Made by a program: the position numbers and the translations under genes. A stretch of DNA of 58,288 bases from a virus: IMG/VR virus record IMGVR_UViG_3300023174_000192, positions 1 to 58,288 of that record. The stretch is one strand, 5' to 3'. The number at the start of each line of letters is the position of its first letter. Within the stretch, counting starts at the first letter, position 1. The notes beneath the pieces were generated by a model that saw nothing but the letters and a program-made list of their open reading frames with translations, made no database searches and was not told where the DNA came from. Below are positions 8,275-34,306 of this stretch, piece by piece.

Positions 8275-8523
8275 TTATTTTTTAACGACTTCCAGTGATT
8301 TTTCTGACATGGTGTGAGAAATAACGAGATCCCCTGCAATTTGGAGTGCGACTTGTAGCCTGATGTGGTCAGGCATTGCTGGACCACTGGCGTATTGATT
8401 TTCACCCCACTCGTTATTCCACTCTGCGTAGGTAAGATAATGATTACCTGTTTCTTTTGGAGAGAGGTCAAATTCAATGAGAGTGATTTCGCATTTAAAT
8501 TTAGTTGGATTTTGGTATTTCAT
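8275..8523 (-). CDS. Hypothetical protein
   Basis: 82 residues from the ATG at 8523, preceded by AAAGG; an upstream start at 8562 would overlap the previous gene. Begins MKYQNPTKFKCEITLIEFD and ends LVISHTMSEKSLEVVKK; soluble, no motif recognised. Last gene of the early operon, directly before the terminator. Confidence 0.65.
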   Translation of the reverse strand: MKYQNPTKFKCEITLIEFDLSPKETGNHYLTYAEWNNEWGENQYASGPAMPDHIRLQVALQIAGDLVISHTMSEKSLEVVKK

Positions 8524-8534
8524 ATCGCGAGCCT

Positions 8535-8963
8535 TTACACGGTTGGATTTATGAAGAACCAAGCGGCGACGGAGGGACCGAATACCCCTATGACTTTATT
8601 GGTGTGACCGTCGTAAATTTTGACATCTTTCTCTCCGCCGTGTGCCAACACCCTGTCGGTAACCACTTCCATCGCTTCACTAAGTTCTTCACAGCCTACA
8701 GTGTCGTAGTACTTAGCCTCTGTCTCCACGATGTACTTGGGCAATGGTTGCTCTTCCGCTTTATCAAATTCTTGTATAAAGTCGGAGTAATCCCAGTTAG
8801 TGACCCTTTGGAATATCGCTGCCAGATCTTCTGGGGTGTTATTACGGCTGACGTCCCCAAGGATGTTACCGTCCATGAGGAGAGCGACTTCTGTTGTGTC
8901 GTGCGTATCTGGCACTAGGCTCAGTTCTGCGCCCCTAGTCAGTCTGATTTTAAGCTGTTGCAT
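8535..8963 (-). CDS. Hypothetical protein
   Basis: 142 residues from the ATG at 8963 (AAGGA upstream), overlapping the preceding gene by 14 nt. Begins MQQLKIRLTRGAELSLV. Acidic middle (TNWDYSDFIQEFDKAEEQPL); no membrane segment and no recognised family. Part of the promoter-P1 operon that ends at 8246. Confidence 0.65.
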   Translation of the reverse strand: MQQLKIRLTRGAELSLVPDTHDTTEVALLMDGNILGDVSRNNTPEDLAAIFQRVTNWDYSDFIQEFDKAEEQPLPKYIVETEAKYYDTVGCEELSEAMEVVTDRVLAHGGEKDVKIYDGHTNKVIGVFGPSVAAWFFINPTV

Positions 8964-9162
8964 GGTAACCGTCCTTGTCGTAGGTTTCAATTAGAATCTC
9001 AAGACCTTTATTGGTAATATGAGACATATCCTGCGTAATACGCTCTTGTAGATAACGCTGGAGATCGTGCACATTAAGTGTCTGTATGTACTCGGCATCC
9101 TGCATACTAAGAGTACGCAGTAACTCGTTGCGATGGCGAGCTTCAAATACTTTGTCTTCCAT
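8950..9162 (-). CDS. Small helical hypothetical protein
   Basis: 70 residues. The ATG at 9162 overlaps the stop of the preceding tiny membrane gene (TGATG), which decides the start. Charged and helical, e.g. RHRNELLRTLSMQDAEYI and LQRYLQERITQDM. Function unknown. Confidence 0.6.
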   Translation of the reverse strand: MEDKVFEARHRNELLRTLSMQDAEYIQTLNVHDLQRYLQERITQDMSHITNKGLEILIETYDKDGYHATA

Positions 9163-14300: not shown

Positions 14301-14806
14301 TAAATTAATCCTTTCGCTGCAAAGTCACTACGACCAGTTACGTCTTTGGCAAGGGACATCATTGCTTTTGTCCCTCTAGGTATGATGCCGCCCAGTTTTG
14401 CTACGAGTTCATAGCTAACGCTTGGCGGGACAAAAACAGTTTCATCTGTGCCTTCAACCACACCAAACATTATGGGATGCCCATTGACGCTGTGCCCATG
14501 ACGTTGAATAGCTACCAAATCCTCAACGAAAGTAGGTTTTGGCAGTCTATTAACTTGCACGGGGCTAGATTCAGCGCGGGTGAATTCGTGTTTAACAGGT
14601 GCATAGCCTATGTTTTCTATTTCTATTTCTATGCCGAGGTATTTTTGTAGCTTTTCAATGGAATACTCACTAGGGACGTTTTTAAACTTCAGCCATCCGT
14701 AAATGGTTGAAGTATCAAGGCCCGTCGCGTAAGTGAGCGGTTTAATCCCACCTGCCCTTTGTAGGGAAATAGCTATTATCATGAGTGGGGAGTCATTTAA
14801 TTTCAT
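14300..14806 (-). CDS. HTH DNA-binding protein
   Basis: 168 residues from the ATG at 14806 (GGAG upstream). Residues ~10-50 form a Cro/CI-like helix-turn-helix: QRAGGIKPLTYATGLDTSTI then YGWLKFKNVP. The rest (e.g. RHGHSVNGHPIMFGVVEGTD) is not recognised and has no LexA-type peptidase signature. A likely transcription regulator of the early region. Confidence 0.65.
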   Translation of the reverse strand: MKLNDSPLMIIAISLQRAGGIKPLTYATGLDTSTIYGWLKFKNVPSEYSIEKLQKYLGIEIEIENIGYAPVKHEFTRAESSPVQVNRLPKPTFVEDLVAIQRHGHSVNGHPIMFGVVEGTDETVFVPPSVSYELVAKLGGIIPRGTKAMMSLAKDVTGRSDFAAKGLI

Positions 14807-15272
14807 GTTGTTTCTCCATAAACCACGGTACTTCACGTTTAGTCCACACAGCGATATCAGATTTTGCACCCCTGTAGTAATTGTGATATGCAAAAACTGT
14901 ATCACGATGTTTGTATTCGTCAGGCATTGCCTGCGCGAATTTAGTAAAACCCCTACTAGTAAGCCCTACGGGAGGGCACTTGACTAGCGTTAATACTTCA
15001 GCACACGCATGTATTTTTCTGTAACGATAAGTATACTCATCGCATAGAGCGCGACCTAAGTTCCAAAGCCATTTATAGTTCTCAATACTTTGTCCCGCCC
15101 ACACAGTACATGGATGGTTAGCATGAGTAGCTTTGTAAGGAGCTTCTTCGCCATAGCGATCGTACACAGCACAAAGCATCTGTGCTGTTTCCAGCGGCAT
15201 TTTAACGATGTGCTTATCGCAATGGAACTTGGCTGCTTCTACAGGTTGAGTGCTCAGAACAAATATATTCAT
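14793..15272 (-). CDS. Conserved phage protein, Pyr_excise-like by some annotations
   Basis: 159 residues. The N-terminal pattern MNIFVLSTQPVEAAKFHCDK, HIVKMPLETAQMLCAVYDRY, then NHPCTVWAGQSIENYKWLW and EYTYRYRKIH is highly characteristic of a widespread phage family. Members are sometimes named pyrimidine-dimer glycosylase-like, but evidence for repair activity is weak. Conserved His/Cys/Glu residues suggest a catalytic site. ATGA-coupled to the gene upstream. Confidence 0.75.
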   Translation of the reverse strand: MNIFVLSTQPVEAAKFHCDKHIVKMPLETAQMLCAVYDRYGEEAPYKATHANHPCTVWAGQSIENYKWLWNLGRALCDEYTYRYRKIHACAEVLTLVKCPPVGLTSRGFTKFAQAMPDEYKHRDTVFAYHNYYRGAKSDIAVWTKREVPWFMEKQHEIK

Positions 15273-15535: not shown

Positions 15536-15578
15536 AGTATATTACGTTACAATATCATTGCAAGCATCATTTTGTCAA
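15536..15578 (-). promoter_or_regulatory. Promoter P3 of the shared early-promoter family
   Basis: Minus strand: box TTGACAAAATGAT (15578-15566), -35 TTGCAA (15563-15558), 16-bp spacer, -10 TATACT (15541-15536), then GGTA. Same spacing as P1 and P2. It overlaps the final bases of the 15575-16120 gene. Confidence 0.75.
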
Positions 15579-16120
15579 ACACCCTTTAATTTTTGTCTGG
15601 TGCTTTCGATCCACTGGATCACGGGTTTTACCCTGTCAAATTCCAGTGTGCCGAGGAATTTGACATGCAGGTACTTATACGCATTGATGTATACGGGGTC
15701 AAAATAGTGGTTACCGAGTTTAATCTGCTCGGCACTGAACATAAGTAGTTCCAGCATATCGCAAATTTTTAGCTGCCGTTCTTCAATTTCGCTCAAAGCG
15801 AATTGCAGCCCCAACATTTGCTCGGCTTTCTTTTCGGCTTTTTGCAAGGCTTCTGCAAACTCAGGAAAATTCCATTTACTTGTAGAAGGGATATCTCCAA
15901 TGAGAATTTCTGCTACATCATGGTAAAGGGTTGCTAGAATAAGCTGCTTACTCGCATCCGGCCATACTTCGTTCAGCAGGGTAGCAACACCCCAAGAATG
16001 TGCGCTCACTGTTTGGCTGTCTCCCACAGTAGGTACGGTATGAAATCTTTTGATATACGCCGCCGAACGCACTGTCTGCATACGTTCAATGAGCGGCGGC
16101 TTATCCGTCGTGCTTATCAT
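15575..16120 (-). CDS. HD-domain 5'-deoxynucleotidase (YfbR-like)
   Basis: 181 residues. The HD-superfamily metal ligands are visible: RFHT (residues ~25-28), VSAHSWGVA, LYHDVAEILIGDIPS with the HD pair, and a later DMLELL aspartate. The combination HD-x-x-E-x-x-x-GD-x-P matches YfbR-type enzymes, which remove phosphate from dNMPs. In this phage it could trim dNMP pools, for instance discarding unmodified dTMP or salvaging host nucleotides. ATGA-coupled to polA. Confidence 0.85.
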   Translation of the reverse strand: MISTTDKPPLIERMQTVRSAAYIKRFHTVPTVGDSQTVSAHSWGVATLLNEVWPDASKQLILATLYHDVAEILIGDIPSTSKWNFPEFAEALQKAEKKAEQMLGLQFALSEIEERQLKICDMLELLMFSAEQIKLGNHYFDPVYINAYKYLHVKFLGTLEFDRVKPVIQWIESTRQKLKGV

Positions 16121-17997: not shown

Positions 17998-18127
17998 TTG
18001 ACTTCACTTTCATGGCGTGACCACACGGGCAGCGGGGCCATCTATTCTTTAGGTTTCGGAAGGTCACTGTGCGACTTTCCTTGCCACACTCACAAACCGC
18101 TTGCATTGTCTTGTTCAACAATTCCAT
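17909..18127 (-). CDS. Small Zn-ribbon protein
   Basis: 72 residues. VCECGKESRTVTFRNLKNRW then CPCGHAMKVK gives two CxC-type pairs of a zinc ribbon. The ATG at 18127 has GGAGATG upstream; an ATG at 18106 is the alternative. The C-terminal 30 residues overlap the polA start in another frame, which is unusually long but the ribbon itself is upstream of the overlap. May bind nucleic acid. Function unknown. Confidence 0.6.
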   Translation of the reverse strand: MELLNKTMQAVCECGKESRTVTFRNLKNRWPRCPCGHAMKVKSNANTFVHTADRMGDAGQLPQFITRKRSGD

Positions 18128-18416
18128 TACCGATCATCTCCGCTTCTACAAGTAGCAGATATCTACGTAGATCGCGTATATCATCAATGATGCCTGTGCT
18201 GCTAGGGTCGTCAGCAATAGTTGCAAAAACATCGTATTTCATTTTCCCAACCTGATTTTCTATGCGGTCCCATTTACGGGCAAGCATCATAAAAGCCCCT
18301 ACTCCGCCGCGACGTTTCCAGCTATTGCCATAGCTTTCTTGTGCGTGGCAGAGCTTAACGAAGTCTTCATTGGCTAAGTTCTGCACAATATTCAAATTAT
18401 GTGTAGGTTCTGTCAT
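18090..18416 (-). CDS. DUF1599-like (nucleotide-modification-associated) small protein
   Basis: 108 residues; the ATG at 18416 overlaps the ThyA-family stop (ATGA). The pattern QESYGNSWKRRGGVGAFMML then ARKWDRIEN and IIDDIRDLRRYLLLVEAEM resembles DUF1599/Nmad1-type helical proteins that accompany nucleotide-modification genes. The family's biochemical role is not established; a nucleotide pyrophosphohydrolase-like fold has been suggested for similar helical families. Position directly after the thymidylate-synthase homologue fits. Confidence 0.6.
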   Translation of the reverse strand: MTEPTHNLNIVQNLANEDFVKLCHAQESYGNSWKRRGGVGAFMMLARKWDRIENQVGKMKYDVFATIADDPSSTGIIDDIRDLRRYLLLVEAEMIGNGIVEQDNASGL

Positions 18417-19387
18417 TTTAGCCTCCGCTGCATCCATTCTACACATGCCTTACGCCAATCGAGAGATGTGATTGTTTCAGCTATGCGAATACCGTCTAGC
18501 TTGTCTCCGTTTTTCCAAACCCTGTATGCTCTACGCATGGGTCCGGCCACGCCATTGAAAAATGAATTGGAGTACAGTTCATCTTCAAAGTCTAAGAAAA
18601 AACAGCTAAGGTCAAACATAAACATTTGGGGGTCCGTAACCAGTGGTTCAGGCTTGTAGTGCCCCCCATTTTCGCCGAGATGTAGGTATGGGTCGTAATC
18701 TGGCGAGATGTTTTCTACCTTCTTAAGCGTTTCCACATAAGCATGGAAACTGTCGCTCATCTGATGGTAGTAACCGACACTAACTCCGATCATAGCTGCA
18801 ATGTATTCTTGCAGCATAGACATGTGCACAGCATTGGCTCCGTATGCCCCCCACACCATATCATTGCTGCGACAGCACACTGTCATATCCAACCTGCCTT
18901 CCCGCACTTTAAAGTAGATATGGGTATTGCACGGGATATCTTTGTAGTCGTTATCTGACCGCAGATCATGGACAGGATCCCACATAGCAAGGACCGTTCG
19001 CCTGTCATTGGGGTAGTTTTTCAACCTGTAGATAACATTAACAAGCTGGTCTTTATCAAACCAGTTACGCCATCTTGCGCCATAAGCACCGTGGAAGCTG
19101 TGCCCATTAGTAGAATATTCTTTCATACGCTTATTGTAGTAGCTAATCCACTCTACATCGTCACGACCAGCCAACATCCAAAGCCCTTCTAGGCAATGGA
19201 AAAACGGGTTAGCATCGCGTTCAGGGTAAAACAAAACGCGCTCACACGGATTTGTGTAAGTAGTGATAACAGGGCCAATCATTTCATGAACTGCCCCTGC
19301 ACGGCTTTCAGCCAAAGGAGCAGTTTTTATCATTTGTACGCCTAAGTAGAGTGCCTCAGAGACGTTTCTAGCCTGTATTGTAAACAT
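18413..19387 (-). CDS. Thymidylate synthase-family enzyme, candidate dUMP hydroxymethylase
   Basis: 324 residues. ThyA landmarks: HGAYGARWRNW, the catalytic-cysteine segment KDIPCNTHIYFKV, and RSNDMVWGAYGANAVHMSM equivalent to the QRS-D-LG-PFN segment. The Asn (GAN) favours a uracil rather than cytosine substrate. The C-terminus (WRKACVEWMQRRLK) differs from ThyA, whose terminal residues close over folate. Both methylating (dTMP) and hydroxymethylating (5-hmdUMP) members exist in this superfamily. The neighbouring 5-hmdU-kinase-like, glycosyltransferase and methyltransferase genes make the hydroxymethylase role the more interesting reading, unproven. Confidence 0.82.
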   Translation of the reverse strand: MFTIQARNVSEALYLGVQMIKTAPLAESRAGAVHEMIGPVITTYTNPCERVLFYPERDANPFFHCLEGLWMLAGRDDVEWISYYNKRMKEYSTNGHSFHGAYGARWRNWFDKDQLVNVIYRLKNYPNDRRTVLAMWDPVHDLRSDNDYKDIPCNTHIYFKVREGRLDMTVCCRSNDMVWGAYGANAVHMSMLQEYIAAMIGVSVGYYHQMSDSFHAYVETLKKVENISPDYDPYLHLGENGGHYKPEPLVTDPQMFMFDLSCFFLDFEDELYSNSFFNGVAGPMRRAYRVWKNGDKLDGIRIAETITSLDWRKACVEWMQRRLK

Positions 19388-19394
19388 AACCCAC

Positions 19395-20363
19395 CTATAT
19401 GCTTTTAAAGAACTCGCGGTATTGCTCGCCTATTACAACGTAGTTGTGCAGATTAACTAGGGAAGTAAGCCCGTTAGCACGTATGTCGCGCAAGCCTTCT
19501 TCGCTAGGGATACTGTTAAGGATGTCGGCTAGTTCCTCAGCATTTTCTACTGCCAAGCAATTTACAAACGGGACCATATCGTCGTTGGGCCGTATCCAGC
19601 TTTTATGAATAATGTTCACACATTCAGCATCAAATGCCTCAAGGAAAGTGTACTGACTACCCCCGCCATCACCCTTAATTTGGCTCATATCTACATTGTA
19701 GTGAGACTGAAACAGTAATTCAAGGGCCGCTGTTTTTGTGCGGGGATACGCAGCTTTTGATTGAACCCATTCTGGATAATTGGGAATAATCTTAAACCGA
19801 GTATAGATACGGTTTTCAAAACCACGGATCTGTATTTTAAAGTCGTCTGGCAACAGCCTGTTTGCATCCAACAGGATATCGGTGTGCTTATCAAAATCAA
19901 TACGGCTGACGCTTATTGCATGGGTGCGTTTATCGTTAATTTCGTACACACCCCTCATCATATAGGGGTGACGGATAAAGGTAGCTTGTGGGATTGTTTC
20001 AAGCCCCACCTTACGAATAACAATGACCCGACCATCCAAAGCAGGAAGATTCTTGAGTTCCGTAGGATCATGAACAACTAATCCAGCCCCACCTTCTTTA
20101 TATAGGGTTGAACTTTCTTCTTGGAAGGTTTTTGCCGCCGCTACAATCAGTTTCTTATTAGTGCGGGATAAGGCTTCAGCCATACTAATATTACGATAAC
20201 GCTTACCGTAACCGAAATCACGGGTAGTTTTTTCAGAACGCGAACGAATTTTAAATAATTCGACTTCAACTTCTGATTCTTGCAGAACATCAATAAGATG
20301 TGATGTGTAGGTGACCCAACCCCCATAAGGATTAGGGCTAAGATAAAATAGGTCAACTTTCAT
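19395..20363 (-). CDS. GT-B type glycosyltransferase
   Basis: 322 residues. The N-terminus MKVDLFYLSPNPYGGWVTYT has the Gly-rich loop of GT4-like GT-B enzymes; the C-terminal domain starts near HAISVSRIDFDKHTDILLDA and has FLEAFDAECVNII in the position of the sugar-nucleotide-binding E-x7-E motif. It should move a sugar from an activated donor. Embedded between the ThyA-family gene and the 5-hmdU-kinase-like gene, DNA base glycosylation is the leading hypothesis; surface-glycan modification is the alternative. Confidence 0.8.
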   Translation of the reverse strand: MKVDLFYLSPNPYGGWVTYTSHLIDVLQESEVEVELFKIRSRSEKTTRDFGYGKRYRNISMAEALSRTNKKLIVAAAKTFQEESSTLYKEGGAGLVVHDPTELKNLPALDGRVIVIRKVGLETIPQATFIRHPYMMRGVYEINDKRTHAISVSRIDFDKHTDILLDANRLLPDDFKIQIRGFENRIYTRFKIIPNYPEWVQSKAAYPRTKTAALELLFQSHYNVDMSQIKGDGGGSQYTFLEAFDAECVNIIHKSWIRPNDDMVPFVNCLAVENAEELADILNSIPSEEGLRDIRANGLTSLVNLHNYVVIGEQYREFFKSI

Positions 20364-20376
20364 AGCATACCCTTTC

Positions 20377-21240
20377 TTAGGCTGATGCTTTGTATAAACT
20401 ACGGGGAGTTCCTTGGCCTAGCTTAACACGCATATATTTATCCCACTCGCACAAGCTGTGTTCAATCGTACGCATATCAACTTCATTCATCGGGACATGT
20501 GGCTCTAGGTATTCACTGCTGCATTGCAACAATTCATACATTTCTGTATTCCAGTCGCGCTTGCTAGGGGTATCTGTTAGCATACGACCATGAATACGAT
20601 TCAGCCCACGCTTTGCTCCGGGACCAGCATTAGCCCATGTCATCCTATCGTGTGCCAATGGCATGATCGTGTGGTTTAGATCTGTAACCACTTCATAAGC
20701 CATAAAGCCTCCGCCACCCCAGCCTACAAACAGACCGAGATGGTTGTGTATTTGCTGGAGGGAGTTGCTGCCCAACCCTGTTTCAGTGATTTGTTTACGA
20801 TCATTCCAAACAGGAGTGAGAAAGTAGTCTACAACCACCTGCTCTTTAGGCAAACTAAGCCCCTGATTAGTGATTATGTAGGCTCCTGTAAACACTTTTT
20901 GCTTTTTATCTAGCATAGACCTAGCAAGCTGCTTAGTGCTTTCAGGATCCCACTCTGTTACCCAGTCATGGGCCGCTGCAAATTCCATCGTACCGAACAT
21001 GCGGAAAAAGCAGCAGTTGAAAAATATTTCTTCAGGAGGCCTGTTGTGATGCGGACCCGTAAACTTCTTACGCATCCACACCGTTGTTTTATCTAACTCA
21101 CGGAAAGCATTCGTAAACTTATACGTTTGCAAGATAGTATCCGTGGTCCAAGGCTGCGGTTCCCCCGCAGCCTTTTTGAGGTAGATACGATGCCGCTCAT
21201 TGATCCAATAGAAAAACAATTCTACGTTTTCTTTGATCAT
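20377..21240 (-). CDS. 5-hmdU DNA kinase / aGPT-pyrophosphorylase-like base hypermodification protein
   Basis: 287 residues. Family landmarks in order: WINERHRIYLKKAAGEPQPW (residues ~12-31), TDTILQTYKFTNAFRELDKT, KVFTGAYII (middle), and GPGAKRGLNR near residues 216-225. These are the signature segments of the helical (HhH-related) domain shared by phage 5-hydroxymethyl-deoxyuridine DNA kinases and alpha-glutamyl/putrescinyl-thymine pyrophosphorylases. I see no separate P-loop kinase domain, so it looks like the helical domain alone. Predicted to activate or modify 5-hmdU in phage DNA. It lies 4 nt from its upstream neighbour. Confidence 0.78.
   Translation of the reverse strand: MIKENVELFFYWINERHRIYLKKAAGEPQPWTTDTILQTYKFTNAFRELDKTTVWMRKKFTGPHHNRPPEEIFFNCCFFRMFGTMEFAAAHDWVTEWDPESTKQLARSMLDKKQKVFTGAYIITNQGLSLPKEQVVVDYFLTPVWNDRKQITETGLGSNSLQQIHNHLGLFVGWGGGGFMAYEVVTDLNHTIMPLAHDRMTWANAGPGAKRGLNRIHGRMLTDTPSKRDWNTEMYELLQCSSEYLEPHVPMNEVDMRTIEHSLCEWDKYMRVKLGQGTPRSLYKASA
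21151..21177 (+). terminator. Terminator-like hairpin on the antisense strand, inside a gene
   Basis: Plus strand: AGGCTGCGG, loop TTCCC, CCGCAGCCT, then TTTT. A 9-10 bp perfect stem with U tract, but it lies inside the coding region of the 20377-21240 gene, on the opposite strand. It would stop antisense transcription only. Confidence 0.5.
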
Positions 21241-21244
21241 AGCA

Positions 21245-21829
21245 TTAATTACCGAGTGCGATCATTTTCTGGTTAACCGCCCAACGGATAAACGTAATCG
21301 CTGTTTTACGATCACTACCGCTTTCAATGTAAGCATCTACTGCTTCACCTACAGTTTTGCTCGCATAGATCATTTCAAGGTTTTTCTTGCGGACGCTGTT
21401 GTCGCGACCGGAGATCTTTTCTACCAAGATTGTAATGGTATCTTTATCATTAGACTTAGGAGCAGGGGCCGCTTTAGGGGCTTTTTCAACTTTCGGGGTA
21501 TTTTCAACGGCGACAGCTTCGTTCATAACAGTTTCCCTTTTCTGGTGGGTGATAGCTTCTTTCCGCACATAGTCGTGCAGTTTAGAAGCGGATACTTTCT
21601 TGTTTGGAAACCCTCTTTTAAAAGACCAAAGGGGGTCACTAACAGAAAGATTCATGCTACGCCAGATGGCGTCAAGTTCTTCTTTAGAATAGTTTTCTTC
21701 TAACTGCCCTAACTCTTTGTAAACAATGCTTGAATCGTTCACGATTTTAGCTTCATGGGCCTGTTTTAAGGAAGAAAACTGATAAAACTCGTAAGGAGCT
21801 TTATCACCTTCGCAGATTATAAAGTACAT
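21245..21829 (-). CDS. Unknown protein in the modification block
   Basis: 194 residues from the ATG at 21829, preceded by AAAGGAG. Three parts: an N-terminal domain (MYFIICEGDKAPYEFYQFSS), a Lys/Ala/Pro linker (VEKAPKAAPAPKSNDKD), and a C-terminal helical domain (TILVEKISGRDNSVRKKNLE, then TAITFIRWAVNQKMIAL). The last domain looks like a small winged-helix or DNA-binding fold, but no family is recognised. Its place between the methyltransferase and the 5-hmdU-kinase-like gene suggests a part in DNA modification. Confidence 0.65.
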   Translation of the reverse strand: MYFIICEGDKAPYEFYQFSSLKQAHEAKIVNDSSIVYKELGQLEENYSKEELDAIWRSMNLSVSDPLWSFKRGFPNKKVSASKLHDYVRKEAITHQKRETVMNEAVAVENTPKVEKAPKAAPAPKSNDKDTITILVEKISGRDNSVRKKNLEMIYASKTVGEAVDAYIESGSDRKTAITFIRWAVNQKMIALGN

Positions 21830-21863
21830 ATTCTGTCTCCTTTCTACGACAGTTACCATACCA

Positions 21864-21906
21864 AGGTAAGGGGTGATTATTGCACTGACAACTGCTTTTT
21901 TCTCCA
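21864..21906 (-). promoter_or_regulatory. Weak candidate member of the early-promoter family (P6)
   Basis: Minus strand: box TGGAGAAAAAAGC (21906-21894) and -35 TTGTCA (21891-21886) at the usual 15-nt offset, and GTGCAATAATC resembles the P1 spacer. The -10 is poor (TTACCT/TACCTT). It would serve the 21245-21829 gene and those below. Confidence 0.35.
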
Positions 21907-22551
21907 CCCGCCGATTGTATGCCACAATTTTTCGTTGCGCTTTGGTTCCTTCACAGTTTCCCAATTCGCGAACATTGCAGTGATCTTTAATGCTTGGTGA
22001 TACCACTTAGGGCTGGTCCCCGCAGGACAGTTGTAGTGCAGTTCCATGACGACTTGCTCGACACTTTCTGGCATACGGGTTACAAAAAAGTCGTATTCTG
22101 CACCTTCGCAATCACACTTAATGCACTGCGGTTTGACTTTATCGAGAACCTTGGAATACTGATGGGCTTTTACAGTGATTTTTTCACGACCACGGTAAGA
22201 AAACATAGAGTAGCTCCCGTGATTCGTACCCGTAGTGAGGTAAAAGTCAATGGTTGTATTTTCACCACGGATAATTGCCCCATTGAAGATCTTAGCCCGT
22301 GGGTCATCGCCCACATTCTTTTGCAGAAGGGCGAAGTTTTCTGGTTCAGGCTCAAAGGCCCAAACTTCTTTCGCGCCATTTTTCAAAGCATAAGAGGTAT
22401 ATGCTCCAAAGTTAGCACCGATATCCAGTACCACTTTGTCTTTAACATCCATCCAGCCGTAGCTACGGGCTACTTCTTTGATGATTTCAGTATCGAACGA
22501 GTTTTTCCTAATGGTCAAGCCACTAGGATGAACAACGAGTTCTTTTTCCAC
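21877..22551 (-). CDS. FkbM-family SAM-dependent methyltransferase
   Basis: 224 residues from the GTG at 22551 (GAGGG upstream); a TTG at 22554 is the alternative. SAM-binding motif I is KVVLDIGANFGAYTSYAL (residues ~36-53), acidic strand WAFEPEPENFALL, and IKCDCEGAEYDFF is the FkbM signature. Family members O-methylate sugars and other small groups. Beside a glycosyltransferase and base-modification genes, methylation of a base-attached sugar or side chain is plausible. Confidence 0.85.
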   Translation of the reverse strand: MEKELVVHPSGLTIRKNSFDTEIIKEVARSYGWMDVKDKVVLDIGANFGAYTSYALKNGAKEVWAFEPEPENFALLQKNVGDDPRAKIFNGAIIRGENTTIDFYLTTGTNHGSYSMFSYRGREKITVKAHQYSKVLDKVKPQCIKCDCEGAEYDFFVTRMPESVEQVVMELHYNCPAGTSPKWYHQALKITAMFANWETVKEPKRNEKLWHTIGGWRKKQLSVQ

Positions 22552-22575
22552 CAAGCACCCTCTTTCTTAAAGTGT

Positions 22576-30534: not shown

Positions 30535-31046
30535 GCGGTAGCCATTTGGAAAGCGTGTTTTTCAACTTCTGAAACACGCGCTGTCCAACCTTTCCCAAAC
30601 GTAGGGAAAATTGGCAATGATTCAAGGAACTTCTGCCGTTCTTCACACAGTTCTGTTACCAGTTCACTTGCGTTGCAGGCTTCAAGAGCTTTCAACGTAG
30701 CTGGTCCTATTGCACCATCTTGGTTAGCACCAACGATGCGCTGCAAGAACTTGGCTGCACGACCTGTGCCGCTGTTTACAGAAAAATCAAACGCAGCGTA
30801 ATCTAGTCCTTCGGGAAGATCGTCACCACGGATTTTGTCCCAATACAGTTTCTTGTAAAGGGGCTTTACGTCATCTATTGAAAGATGGCGCATTGTCATC
30901 TCATCAATTTCATGTCCTACGTATTCTTCCCAAACTTTTTTAGTTACCCCAAGGTTTGTCATGCCTCCGGGATCTTTTGGGTTATTTACGTAACCACCTT
31001 CGTGTTTGATAACCAACGAGAAGGCTTCATCAAAATTCTCTCTCAC
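30531..31046 (-). CDS. Endolysin, GH108 family with peptidoglycan-binding domain
   Basis: 171 residues. IKHEGGYVNNPKDPGGMTNLG carries the GH108 catalytic Glu (HEGGY) and typical Gly loop; the C-terminal half (GANQDGAIGPATLKALEA) is a PG_binding_3-type domain. A muramidase that degrades host peptidoglycan at lysis. No signal peptide or membrane anchor, so it needs a holin. Last gene of the late operon; ATGA overlap with the large gene upstream, and stop overlap with the plus-strand helicase. Confidence 0.92.
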   Translation of the reverse strand: MRENFDEAFSLVIKHEGGYVNNPKDPGGMTNLGVTKKVWEEYVGHEIDEMTMRHLSIDDVKPLYKKLYWDKIRGDDLPEGLDYAAFDFSVNSGTGRAAKFLQRIVGANQDGAIGPATLKALEACNASELVTELCEERQKFLESLPIFPTFGKGWTARVSEVEKHAFQMATA

Positions 31047-34000
31047 CCTGCTCTCCTTTGTGCGAGAATTGCCCCCAACGGGTCGTTAGGGAACAAGTTT
31101 TGGTATTCCATGGAACTGCGTTTTTGAGGAGCGGCTGGTCCTACGGGAGGGGCAGCAGGAGTAGGGTAGCCAGTTCCGGGTCTTGGATTAACTGTGATGG
31201 TATTCCCACTTACCCCTGATTCAGGGTTAGTGGTGGGTGTGCTAGGCACAACAACAGGTGCTCCACGAGTATCTACAGGGGTCGGAGATACCTGTGGGAT
31301 AACCAAGGGCTTGTTTTGTATGGCAGGCATCTCTTTAAAAGTACGAGGCTGCTTAGGGGCAGGCAATTGATTAGAGGGCAGCACCGAAGAAGGTTCTACA
31401 GGAGTTTCTTCAGGTTTTTCTTCTTTTGCATACGGACGTCCATCAGGACGTAGCCCTAAATTGTACATATACCCCTGAAGTTTATCCTGCTGGCGTTTAG
31501 TAGGAGTACCGTTTGCCCCTGCTTTTTCAGCAAGAAGTTTTGCAAAATCTGAATCATACATAACTTTTTCCATGACCTGATCAAATGCCGCCCGTTGGCG
31601 AGCATTGATGAACCTTCCGCCGAAAGCAAAAGCGAGATACTCTGGAGAAACTTGTTTTTGACCTGCGGAACGGACAGCATTAAATAAACTTGGAAGAGTA
31701 ATGCCCGTGTACCGTTCAAATTTATCAACTCCCGTAAGAGTTTGCATAGCAGAACCCTGTGCTCCTGCATCTGCATAGAGTGCTAATCCCATCCCCTTCG
31801 CAGCAGTCTCTAAGTTTTTAAGATGCTCTTTTCCCAAAGACATTTCAAGAGCTCTGCGGTTATCGTTAATTGCTTGCAGGAACCCTCCTGGATTAGAAAT
31901 ATCATTTGTCTCCCGTAAACGGGTCCAAACAGCTTGATTAAAAGCCTCTTTAAGTCCAGAATCATTAGCTGCATCTATTTTACTGACTATGGCCTTCATA
32001 TCTGCTGGTCTAGAAATAAGCTGGTCAATGTACTGTTCCGGAGAGAGCTCGGCAGATTTAACTCTATCCAACAGTTTATTTACCCTATCGCTATTAATAG
32101 CTGCCTGACGAGCTTTTAATTCAACCTGCCTTTCAGCCATAGCAGAAGCAGCAGATTGCACATTAGACAATTCGTCGTGCAAACCGAGAGTTGTTAAAAT
32201 CTCTCTATTCTTAGTGATAAATGTTTCTAGTTTACTAGGAATAATGACACCATCTTTCACAGCGGTATCTTTAGCCCCATCTAAAATAACATTTCTCATA
32301 GAAGCAACAGCTTCTGGTTTATCTTTATAAAGATTTAAAAAGTCTGTAGCATTTTCAACATTTTTCGTGAAAGATTTCGCAACAGCCTCATCACTCGTTA
32401 CGTAACGAATGTCATTGGGCCGTGAGGCACTGCTAGGAGATAAAACTTGATAGGCTATCCCACGTTCAAAAGGCAGGGCATACTCTTCGCGATATCGATC
32501 TTTAAACTTCACCCAATTTTCATTGGTAGAATAATACAAATTACCAAATGTATCCAACCGTTCTTTAAACTCGGCAAGATGTTTAATATCACTGCCTTGA
32601 TTATTCGCAATAGCAGCAGAAAGTTCATCGCCTACCTTATCGCGATATTTTTTCCAAGTTTGAAAATTTATGACGCTAGCTTGATCGTTCACAAAATCAC
32701 GAATGACTTTTGGCAAATAACGATCTACATCATTAGGTTTATCAACTGTTCCTTCAAAAAAGGCTTCTCTAATCGCTTTTTTCACAGGATTAAACAAGGC
32801 TCCAGGATTAGCCTCGTCAAGACCAATATCCGTCGCTAATTTATCTAATTCAACCTTTTTATCGTCTTTTGCTTTTTGCAAAGCACGACGAATATTAGCA
32901 CCCTCTGTAGCCCTATTTTCTACATTAGGGAATGTACCAGCGAGTCCTTCTGATTCTTCGCGAAGAGCGCGTTGTGCAGCAGATAAAGCTCCTTGTTCGC
33001 CTTCTGTGATGCTATGGAGCTGAGAAACTACTGCTGTAGGAGCGGCTTCTTTATAAGGGTTTTTCAAATCAAGAAAATTTTGTACGGTTTCTATGTTCGT
33101 ATTAATACGTTCCACATTCCTACGCGCAGATTCTCCGGAAGCAGCGCGTTGTGATGCTTCTTGGCCTAACCGCAAAGTAGTATCTTGCGATAATTCAGCA
33201 GGAGTCAGGGTTAAAGGAGTCCCTGCTTTTTTAAATTCTTCGGCAATCCGCTGGGCTTCTTGCAAATTACCATTTTTCATCGCGCTGTCAAATGCTTTTT
33301 GCATTTCAACACCGATAGTTTCTTGCGCTTTATCTTCTAGAGCTTGTTTACCAGAACCAAAAGGCAAAGACTCATGCGCCCACGAAAGTAAATTACGAGT
33401 AGGAGACCATTTATAAAGCAGTTTTGCTCCTGCTACTGCCAGAGTAGGGAGAGTGCCCCCTGCAATATCTCCCACACCTGTGCGGTGACCTGTGAATTCT
33501 TCTTCAGCAGTACCCGTTGCTCCAGAAGCAGCATTAGAAAGTAACTCTGCCAAAGTTACTCGTGCTGGATTTGCTGCGAAAGCATTAAGTCCTTCATTAG
33601 CAGCACCGACTAAAGCGCGACCTGCGTAATCTAAACTACCTCTAATCCCAGGAACTGCAGGAATAAGAGCATCGCGTTGTATCGCCTCACGAGCAGCGGT
33701 ACCTGAACCAGTACCTATTTCTTGCAAAACACCATTTCTGTTCACAACAATAGCAGGGGTAAACGGACGTTGCCCTGCTATCATGTACGGAACATACGCT
33801 GACGCTTCACCTGCTCCAGCCAAAACTTTTTCACCAAAAGTTGTCGGTTTCCTAGGTTCTCCTGCGCCCATACTGACACTACCAAGACCAAAAGGAAGAG
33901 ACAACAACTCCTGTTTTTGTTTATAATCGGCAGCGTTAAAAAACCGAGTAAGGATATTTCGGTTTGCCTGCGGATCATCAGAAGCCTCGAGCAGCCCAGA

Positions 34001-34306
34001 TTTTTCTGCCCCGTATGCTAAAGCATTGATAGCTATGTCGGGGAGTGCGAGCAACGTCTTATTGAAACTACCGAAATAAGCACTCGTAAGACCAGTTCCT
34101 TCATCGGGAACCTTTTTAGAATACAAAGTATCTTGATTAGCCGCATCAGGAAGGACCATAGTCCGTTGTCCTGCCGCCGTCATTCCAGGAGACTGAACAT
34201 CAATAGAACGTGCAGGGGTAGGTTTTCCCGAGTCAGAGCTGGATACGGGAACTCCCCCAAGCTGCTCGGAAAGATCAGGTGTCTCCACTGTATCTTGTTT
34301 CGACAT
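31043..34306 (-). CDS. Large probable internal virion / DNA-ejection protein
   Basis: 1087 residues. The first ~320 residues contain several hydrophobic, Ala/Gly-rich stretches (ALPDIAINALAYGAEKSGLL, LVGAANEGLNAFAANPA), then ~550 residues of coiled coil (e.g. EGANIRRALQKAKDDKKVEL) and a Pro-rich tail (PTPVDTRGAPVVVPSTPTTN). No catalytic motif. Size, composition and position between the tail genes and endolysin resemble podovirus ejection proteins that form a trans-envelope channel. Tail-length (tape-measure) function is the alternative. Confidence 0.65.
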   Translation of the reverse strand: MSKQDTVETPDLSEQLGGVPVSSSDSGKPTPARSIDVQSPGMTAAGQRTMVLPDAANQDTLYSKKVPDEGTGLTSAYFGSFNKTLLALPDIAINALAYGAEKSGLLEASDDPQANRNILTRFFNAADYKQKQELLSLPFGLGSVSMGAGEPRKPTTFGEKVLAGAGEASAYVPYMIAGQRPFTPAIVVNRNGVLQEIGTGSGTAAREAIQRDALIPAVPGIRGSLDYAGRALVGAANEGLNAFAANPARVTLAELLSNAASGATGTAEEEFTGHRTGVGDIAGGTLPTLAVAGAKLLYKWSPTRNLLSWAHESLPFGSGKQALEDKAQETIGVEMQKAFDSAMKNGNLQEAQRIAEEFKKAGTPLTLTPAELSQDTTLRLGQEASQRAASGESARRNVERINTNIETVQNFLDLKNPYKEAAPTAVVSQLHSITEGEQGALSAAQRALREESEGLAGTFPNVENRATEGANIRRALQKAKDDKKVELDKLATDIGLDEANPGALFNPVKKAIREAFFEGTVDKPNDVDRYLPKVIRDFVNDQASVINFQTWKKYRDKVGDELSAAIANNQGSDIKHLAEFKERLDTFGNLYYSTNENWVKFKDRYREEYALPFERGIAYQVLSPSSASRPNDIRYVTSDEAVAKSFTKNVENATDFLNLYKDKPEAVASMRNVILDGAKDTAVKDGVIIPSKLETFITKNREILTTLGLHDELSNVQSAASAMAERQVELKARQAAINSDRVNKLLDRVKSAELSPEQYIDQLISRPADMKAIVSKIDAANDSGLKEAFNQAVWTRLRETNDISNPGGFLQAINDNRRALEMSLGKEHLKNLETAAKGMGLALYADAGAQGSAMQTLTGVDKFERYTGITLPSLFNAVRSAGQKQVSPEYLAFAFGGRFINARQRAAFDQVMEKVMYDSDFAKLLAEKAGANGTPTKRQQDKLQGYMYNLGLRPDGRPYAKEEKPEETPVEPSSVLPSNQLPAPKQPRTFKEMPAIQNKPLVIPQVSPTPVDTRGAPVVVPSTPTTNPESGVSGNTITVNPRPGTGYPTPAAPPVGPAAPQKRSSMEYQNLFPNDPLGAILAQRRAG

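Follow-up and report, generated by a model that had tools for sequence, protein, structure and literature searches.

A glycosyltransferase in the place of the kinase in a predicted thymidine-modification cassette of a virus related to HTVC023P-type phages

Thymidine hypermodification in phages has so far been worked out mainly as the action of a kinase together with amino-acid transfer. This route was reportedly established by Lee et al. in 2018 and 2022, and the 2022 work is said to have described combinatorial permutations in metagenomes. The DNA of phage M6 contains a base derived from 5-hydroxymethyldeoxyuridine (5-hmdU) (PMC6449724). In HTVC023P-type pelagiphages a thymidylate synthase (TS) occurs with aGPT-PPlase1, a member of the PF18723 family, and sometimes with a 5'-deoxynucleotidase and a putative beta-glucosyl-HMC-alpha-glucosyltransferase, for which gene set the authors propose a broadened function (PMC9599517). 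Here we describe a cassette with PF18723 and a ThyA homologue in the virus record IMGVR_UViG_3300023174_000192 (58,288 bases; hereafter the window, meaning the whole stretch of DNA that was analyzed). We consider it probable that this cassette carries out post-replicative glycosylation of thymidine, with a glycosyltransferase (GT) in the place of the kinase and the PF18723 protein as its helper.

The window virus is a bacterial virus of marine type. Its polymerase was closest to those of HTVC023P-type phages (56% to phage 023Pt_psg01), and its portal protein matched those of DSL-LC04, HTVC023P and relatives at 46–48%. The cassette is one run of minus-strand genes with a helicase on one side and DNA polymerase A on the other. 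Its genes, and a nucleotidase gene beyond the polymerase, are as follows.

18413–19387, minus strand: ThyA-family enzyme, predicted deoxyuridine monophosphate (dUMP) 5-hydroxymethylase, based on PF00303, phrog_5131, identity to M6 gp58 and the active-site pattern

19395–20363, minus strand: GT-B glycosyltransferase, predicted from its AlphaFold fold to act on 5-hmdU in DNA

20377–21240, minus strand: PF18723 'HMUDK_hel' protein (former aGPT-PPlase clade 1), predicted shared partner in the recognition or presentation of 5-hmdU in DNA

21245–21859, minus strand (start at 21859 or 21829): small accessory protein with a conserved C-terminal domain, its gene directly upstream of the PF18723 gene

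21877–22554, minus strand, TTG start: FkbM-family S-adenosylmethionine (SAM) methyltransferase (PF05050, TIGR01444), predicted sugar O-methyltransferase

18090–18416, minus strand: small partner gene after ThyA, with no family match, a conserved neighbor

15575–16120, minus strand: HD-domain 5'-deoxynucleotidase (YfbR-like; PF12917, E 4.5e-14)

The genes that an earlier note on this DNA had named (those for ThyA, the GT-B enzyme, a protein with the motif GPGAKRGLNR, a product of unknown role and FkbM) all lie where it had put them, on the minus strand. The gene of unknown role does encode a small C-terminal domain, and its start was revised: position 21859 or 21829 is the probable start because a GTG start at 22006 overlaps the FkbM gene. 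The same block of genes was found again in scores of other viral contigs, indicating that the locus is not a chance arrangement. In three HTVC023P-type relatives we found neither PF18723 nor any TS, and based on this joint absence the block behaves as a unit.

Searches of the whole 58-kb record for the P-loop 5-hmdU DNA kinase (PF18748) and for an amino acid:DNA transferase (ADDT, PF18724) gave no match; both families were present in M6 and Sonora. A broader P-loop kinase profile, built from 18 kinase sequences, found the kinase in M6, Ab19, ViI and phiW-14, and gave no match in the window, in the cultured Brevibacterium iodinum phage LuckyBarnes or in 12 GT-type records. As this profile detected the phiW-14 kinase (E 2e-25), we dropped our view of that phage as a kinase-less exception, which had come from its having no PF18748 match. 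A census of Walker A motifs in the window placed the sole motif in the helicase and none in the PF18723 protein. Neither PF18748, nor the 18-sequence profile, nor the Walker A census revealed a hidden kinase in the window. In ViI the kinase gene is beside thyA and ~49 kb from the PF18723 gene, so the two are separate proteins in that phage. In GenBank, P-loop 5-hmdU DNA kinases can carry the label terminase small subunit, as at 8426–8989 of locus L010 (M6 gp54) and 1704–2366 of locus L255 (ViI orf67).

These results bear on the scheme of the earlier note, in which a kinase activated 5-hmdU and was followed by a transferase step as in SP10, phiW-14 and ViI. The gene it had presumed to encode the kinase is that of the PF18723 helical protein, and neither a kinase detectable with the two profiles nor PF18724 occurs in the record; of the two families for which it had suggested profile searches, aGPT-PPlase clade 1 (PF18723) was confirmed and the P-loop 5-hmdU kinase was absent.

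We gathered 249 PF18723 loci from viral contigs and annotated phages, and counted neighbors within 5 kb on the same strand in 131 non-redundant clusters (80% identity). A GT alone was present in 64 clusters, a kinase alone in 30, neither in 37 and both in none (Fisher 3e-11), compared to the ~15 clusters with both that would be expected under independence. When clusters were formed at 60% identity, the corresponding numbers were 19, 17, 22 and, again for both, 0 (p 4e-4). An ADDT was found nearby in 0/64 GT-type clusters versus 21/67 of the others; weak ADDT matches in three loci (L051, L056 and L058) were below the cut-off and were not counted, and, judged by coordinates, the ones in L051 and L056 fall within PF18723. 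Across these loci the GT replaces the kinase rather than acting after it, contrary to the order of steps in the earlier note.

In many loci the slot between PF18723 and ThyA holds a GT of one of four families: the GT-B type of the window, TAGT (PF20691), a PF00534 type of ~430 residues, and a family typified by locus L003 (GTL003), whose assignment as a glycosyltransferase is weakly supported. The PF18723 tree requires at least 5–6 switches between kinase and GT and at least 24–33 changes of slot family. In the sister of the window, locus L002, a TAGT gene (PF20691, E 4e-22) occupies the slot in which the window has its GT-B gene; no PF20691 match was found in the window record. Loci L217 and L252 have a common order of PolA, two tandem copies of PF18723, then either TAGT with a radical SAM gene (one locus) or a P-loop kinase (the other), then TS. 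The order in LuckyBarnes is TS-TAGT-TAGT-PF18723, with no kinase.

The pathway that we propose would begin with the ThyA homologue making 5-hydroxymethyl-dUMP, which would substitute for some of the deoxythymidine monophosphate (dTMP) when DNA is made. The HD nucleotidase, whose M6 counterpart (gp59) adjoins the TS of that phage, may assist by removing dTMP. The GT-B enzyme would then move a sugar from a nucleotide sugar onto the 5-hydroxymethyl oxygen in the DNA, predicted to be the one to which the P-loop kinase of M6/ViI-type phages adds phosphate. PF18723 would serve both pathways, most likely by binding 5-hmdU in DNA and presenting it to the enzyme of the first transfer, and the FkbM enzyme may O-methylate the added sugar. 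DNA modified in this way would probably be hidden from bacterial defenses, i.e., have an anti-restriction effect. A cassette that starts from 5-hmdUMP and includes glycosyl and methyl steps, as the earlier note had outlined, is the best reading of the locus; its description as a new variant stands in outline, although a similar gene set had already been noted in related pelagiphages (PMC9599517).

Several points weigh against this proposal. The exclusion of GT and kinase is confounded by common ancestry, a tree-corrected sign test being non-significant (median p 0.25), and it is therefore a strong pattern, not proof; in addition, the neighbor counts depend on the 5-kb, same-strand rule, and contigs may be incomplete. 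The GT matched no sequence family, a section of its C-terminal half was modeled at low confidence, and GT-B enzymes use many acceptors, so that glycosylation of a protein or of a surface sugar is possible instead. For PF18723 as a helper, the support comes from gene context and likeness of fold, and sequence profiles give no link to the ADDTs. Lastly, FkbM is present in only about one fifth of the GT-type loci.

The match of the 20377–21240 product to PF18723 (E 5e-50) includes the GPGAKRGLNR motif. The model of this protein (pLDDT 93) had no meaningful match in a fold search of the PDB. Among viral models, it matched the 637-residue SP10 5-hmdU DNA kinase and, at TM 0.59, amino acid:DNA transferases; an endonuclease III was matched faintly. 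Despite the likeness of fold, homology between PF18723 and the ADDTs was unsupported by profile-profile comparison (probability 2–5%). PF18723 has identical invariant residues whether its locus is of the GT type or the kinase type. The family is absent from SPO1, a phage with plain 5-hmdU, and present in phiW-14. We infer that PF18723 acts during the first transfer onto 5-hmdU or ahead of it; it probably recognizes or presents the base, and it might have an enzymatic role. We would go further only tentatively, to the idea that PF18723, instead of being a part of the kinase, is a general adaptor that recognizes 5-hmdU in DNA and presents it to a first transferase that can be exchanged (a kinase, a GT-B enzyme, TAGT or others), and that the window DNA contains an O-methylated glycosyl-oxymethyl-deoxyuridine; this base did not occur in the literature surveyed. 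Such an adaptor would have a fold in common with amino acid:DNA transferases and perhaps also with DNA glycosylases.

The Pfam name of the family, '5-hmdU DNA kinase, helical domain', invites the alternative that PF18723 is itself the 5-hmdU DNA kinase and that the GT uses phospho-5-hmdU as its acceptor, so that the sugar would be linked through a phosphodiester, somewhat as in SP-15. The SP10 kinase does contain the PF18723 fold, and a fold unlike any solved structure leaves room for an unrecognized activity. However, in M6, ViI, phiW-14, Ab19 and LysYB1 the P-loop kinase and PF18723 are two separate proteins, no Walker A motif occurs in PF18723, and the SP10 protein is of sufficient length for a fused P-loop domain. 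We regard this alternative as unlikely. Genes in which PF18723 is fused to a GT or a kinase were not seen among the surveyed loci, in which the long PF18723 frames look like upstream out-of-frame extensions.

The GT gene product had no Pfam, PHROG or NCBIfam match, and tblastn of the GT against cultured phages found no match; its homologue in locus L009 matched Glyco_transf_4 weakly. An AlphaFold model built from eight sequences (pLDDT 77, with parts of residues 181–236 poor) had a GT-B fold, and its fold matches in the PDB included GT4-type enzymes and T4 alpha-glucosyltransferase with 5-hydroxymethyluracil DNA (E 9e-7, TM 0.61). Since GT-B and FkbM enzymes are versatile and this GT family has no characterized member, the two could instead modify a target other than DNA, such as a virion protein or a host surface sugar, with ThyA and PF18723 only handling 5-hmdU. 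That several unrelated GT families fill the same PF18723-ThyA slot makes this improbable, as does the mutual exclusion of GT and kinase among the clusters; moreover, one of the slot families is TAGT, a DNA glucosyltransferase in T2/T6 (PMC13216743).

The ThyA homologue matched PF00303 (E 5e-21) and phrog_5131 (E 9e-107), was 44% identical to M6 gp58, and had as its closest PDB relative MilA, a cytidine monophosphate 5-hydroxymethylase. Alignment to E. coli ThyA showed the catalytic Cys and RSxD in place, with L143 replaced by D, H147 by N, and W80 lost, as in M6 and ViI. The LuckyBarnes homologue has the same pattern as these three at the catalytic Cys, RSxD, N177, L143D and H147N. An Asp at the L143 position is also present in the T4 deoxycytidine monophosphate (dCMP) hydroxymethylase. 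N177, on the uracil side, is retained in the window homologue and not in T4 gp42; a uracil substrate is therefore expected, and a dCMP-specific hydroxymethylase of the T-even type was rejected. The best prediction from the alignment, in agreement with the hydroxymethylase-type active site that the earlier note had anticipated, is that the enzyme is a dUMP hydroxymethylase. Automatic annotations call it a thymidylate synthase, and its catalytic residues are retained; were it an ordinary one, its neighbors would be unrelated auxiliary genes. We consider this very unlikely given the hydroxymethylase-type substitutions that it has in common with M6 and ViI and the joint absence of TS and PF18723 from the HTVC023P-type relatives. 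Least probable is the earlier note's route of kinase activation followed by a transferase and a pyrophosphorylase-type step, as in M6, ViI and phiW-14: the ThyA and PF18723 proteins are related to those of kinase-type phages, but neither PF18748 nor PF18724 has a match in the 58-kb record, in which a Walker A motif occurs only once.

The FkbM product exceeded the curated cut-offs of both its families (PF05050, E 4e-12, 46.9 bits versus 22.7; TIGR01444, E 4e-22, 79.1 bits versus 37.7). An FkbM gene was nearby in 13/64 GT-type clusters compared with 2/67 of the others (p 0.002). For a radical SAM family the numbers were 17/64 and 0/67. Such enrichments would fit additional modification of the group once it is in place. 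Relatives of the accessory protein were present in 84 surveyed loci, some of them cut down to the C-terminal domain (80–110 residues), and relatives of the small partner gene in 183. The DUF1599-like label that the earlier note had given to the latter was withdrawn, as neither the window protein nor ten relatives matched any Pfam family at E<0.01.

Other observations were made in the survey and in the window. After PF18723 (7800–8867) in locus L163 come a GT like that of the window, a radical SAM gene of the M6 type, two genes for pyridoxal phosphate enzymes and TS. An ADDT is lacking, and this locus may join sugar chemistry to amine chemistry. Among the loci that lack both GT and kinase, a gene just upstream of PF18723 encodes a class I methyltransferase of ~280 residues (L188, L192, L193, L205, L207, L220, L225, L226, L228, L239, L241, L243 and L250), often with a 193-residue product that is AlkB-like by eye. 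A PIG-L deacetylase-like gene is upstream of PF18723 in L102, L107 and L116 (Pfam match from L107 only, E 3e-4). In the window itself, the product of 14793–15272 (minus strand) resembles pyrimidine dimer DNA glycosylases (PF03013, E 2e-6; phrog_624) and has relatives at 60 of the loci surveyed, and 31043–34306 (minus strand) encodes a 1087-residue protein with no PHROG or Pfam match.

If PF18723 pathways do have a kinase-type and a glycosyl-type branch, acting on the same hydroxyl with a common partner, then glycosylated thymines are likely to be widespread in marine phages, the role of PF18723 is open to testing, and a new group of DNA glycosyltransferases can be drawn on. LuckyBarnes, a cultured phage with the same arrangement, makes a direct test possible.

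Of the described systems, the pathway of M6, ViI, phiW-14 and SP10 is like that of the window in having a ThyA of the dUMP hydroxymethylase type and PF18723 near the DNA polymerase, with 5-hmdU modified after replication, and M6 also has the HD nucleotidase. The window differs in that a GT fills the slot and that both the P-loop 5-hmdU kinase and the amino acid:DNA transferase are missing. Base J of trypanosomes is beta-glucosyl-5-hydroxymethyluracil, made after JBP dioxygenases have oxidized T in DNA; the predicted product of the window would likewise have a sugar on the hydroxymethyl group of hydroxymethyluracil in DNA, whereas its 5-hmdU would be made as a nucleotide by the ThyA homologue. 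The HTVC023P-type pelagiphages belong to the same phage group and have nearly the same gene set, the window differing in that its transferase is a GT-B enzyme and is accompanied by an FkbM methyltransferase (PMC9599517). To that account our analysis adds that the kinase is absent, that kinase and GT exclude each other and have been swapped repeatedly, and that PF18723 is what the loci have in common; these points were not found in the literature surveyed, to which Lee 2022 does not belong. Sugar-bearing thymines are also found in Yersinia phage YerA41, which has thymidine with an oligosaccharide-like substituent (PMC9023294), and in Bacillus phage SP-15 (PMC5977210), whose record had neither PF18723 nor PF18748; unlike the group predicted for the window, theirs are larger or differently linked. 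The T-even pathway of 5-hydroxymethylcytosine glucosylation (T4 AGT/BGT, T2/T6 TAGT; PMC13216743, PMC13390438) acts on cytosine, whereas the window ThyA has the uracil-type Asn, and T4 has no PF18723. It is nevertheless similar to the window cassette in that a ThyA-homologue hydroxymethylase is followed by a DNA glycosyltransferase, and the fold of T4 AGT resembles that modeled for the window GT.

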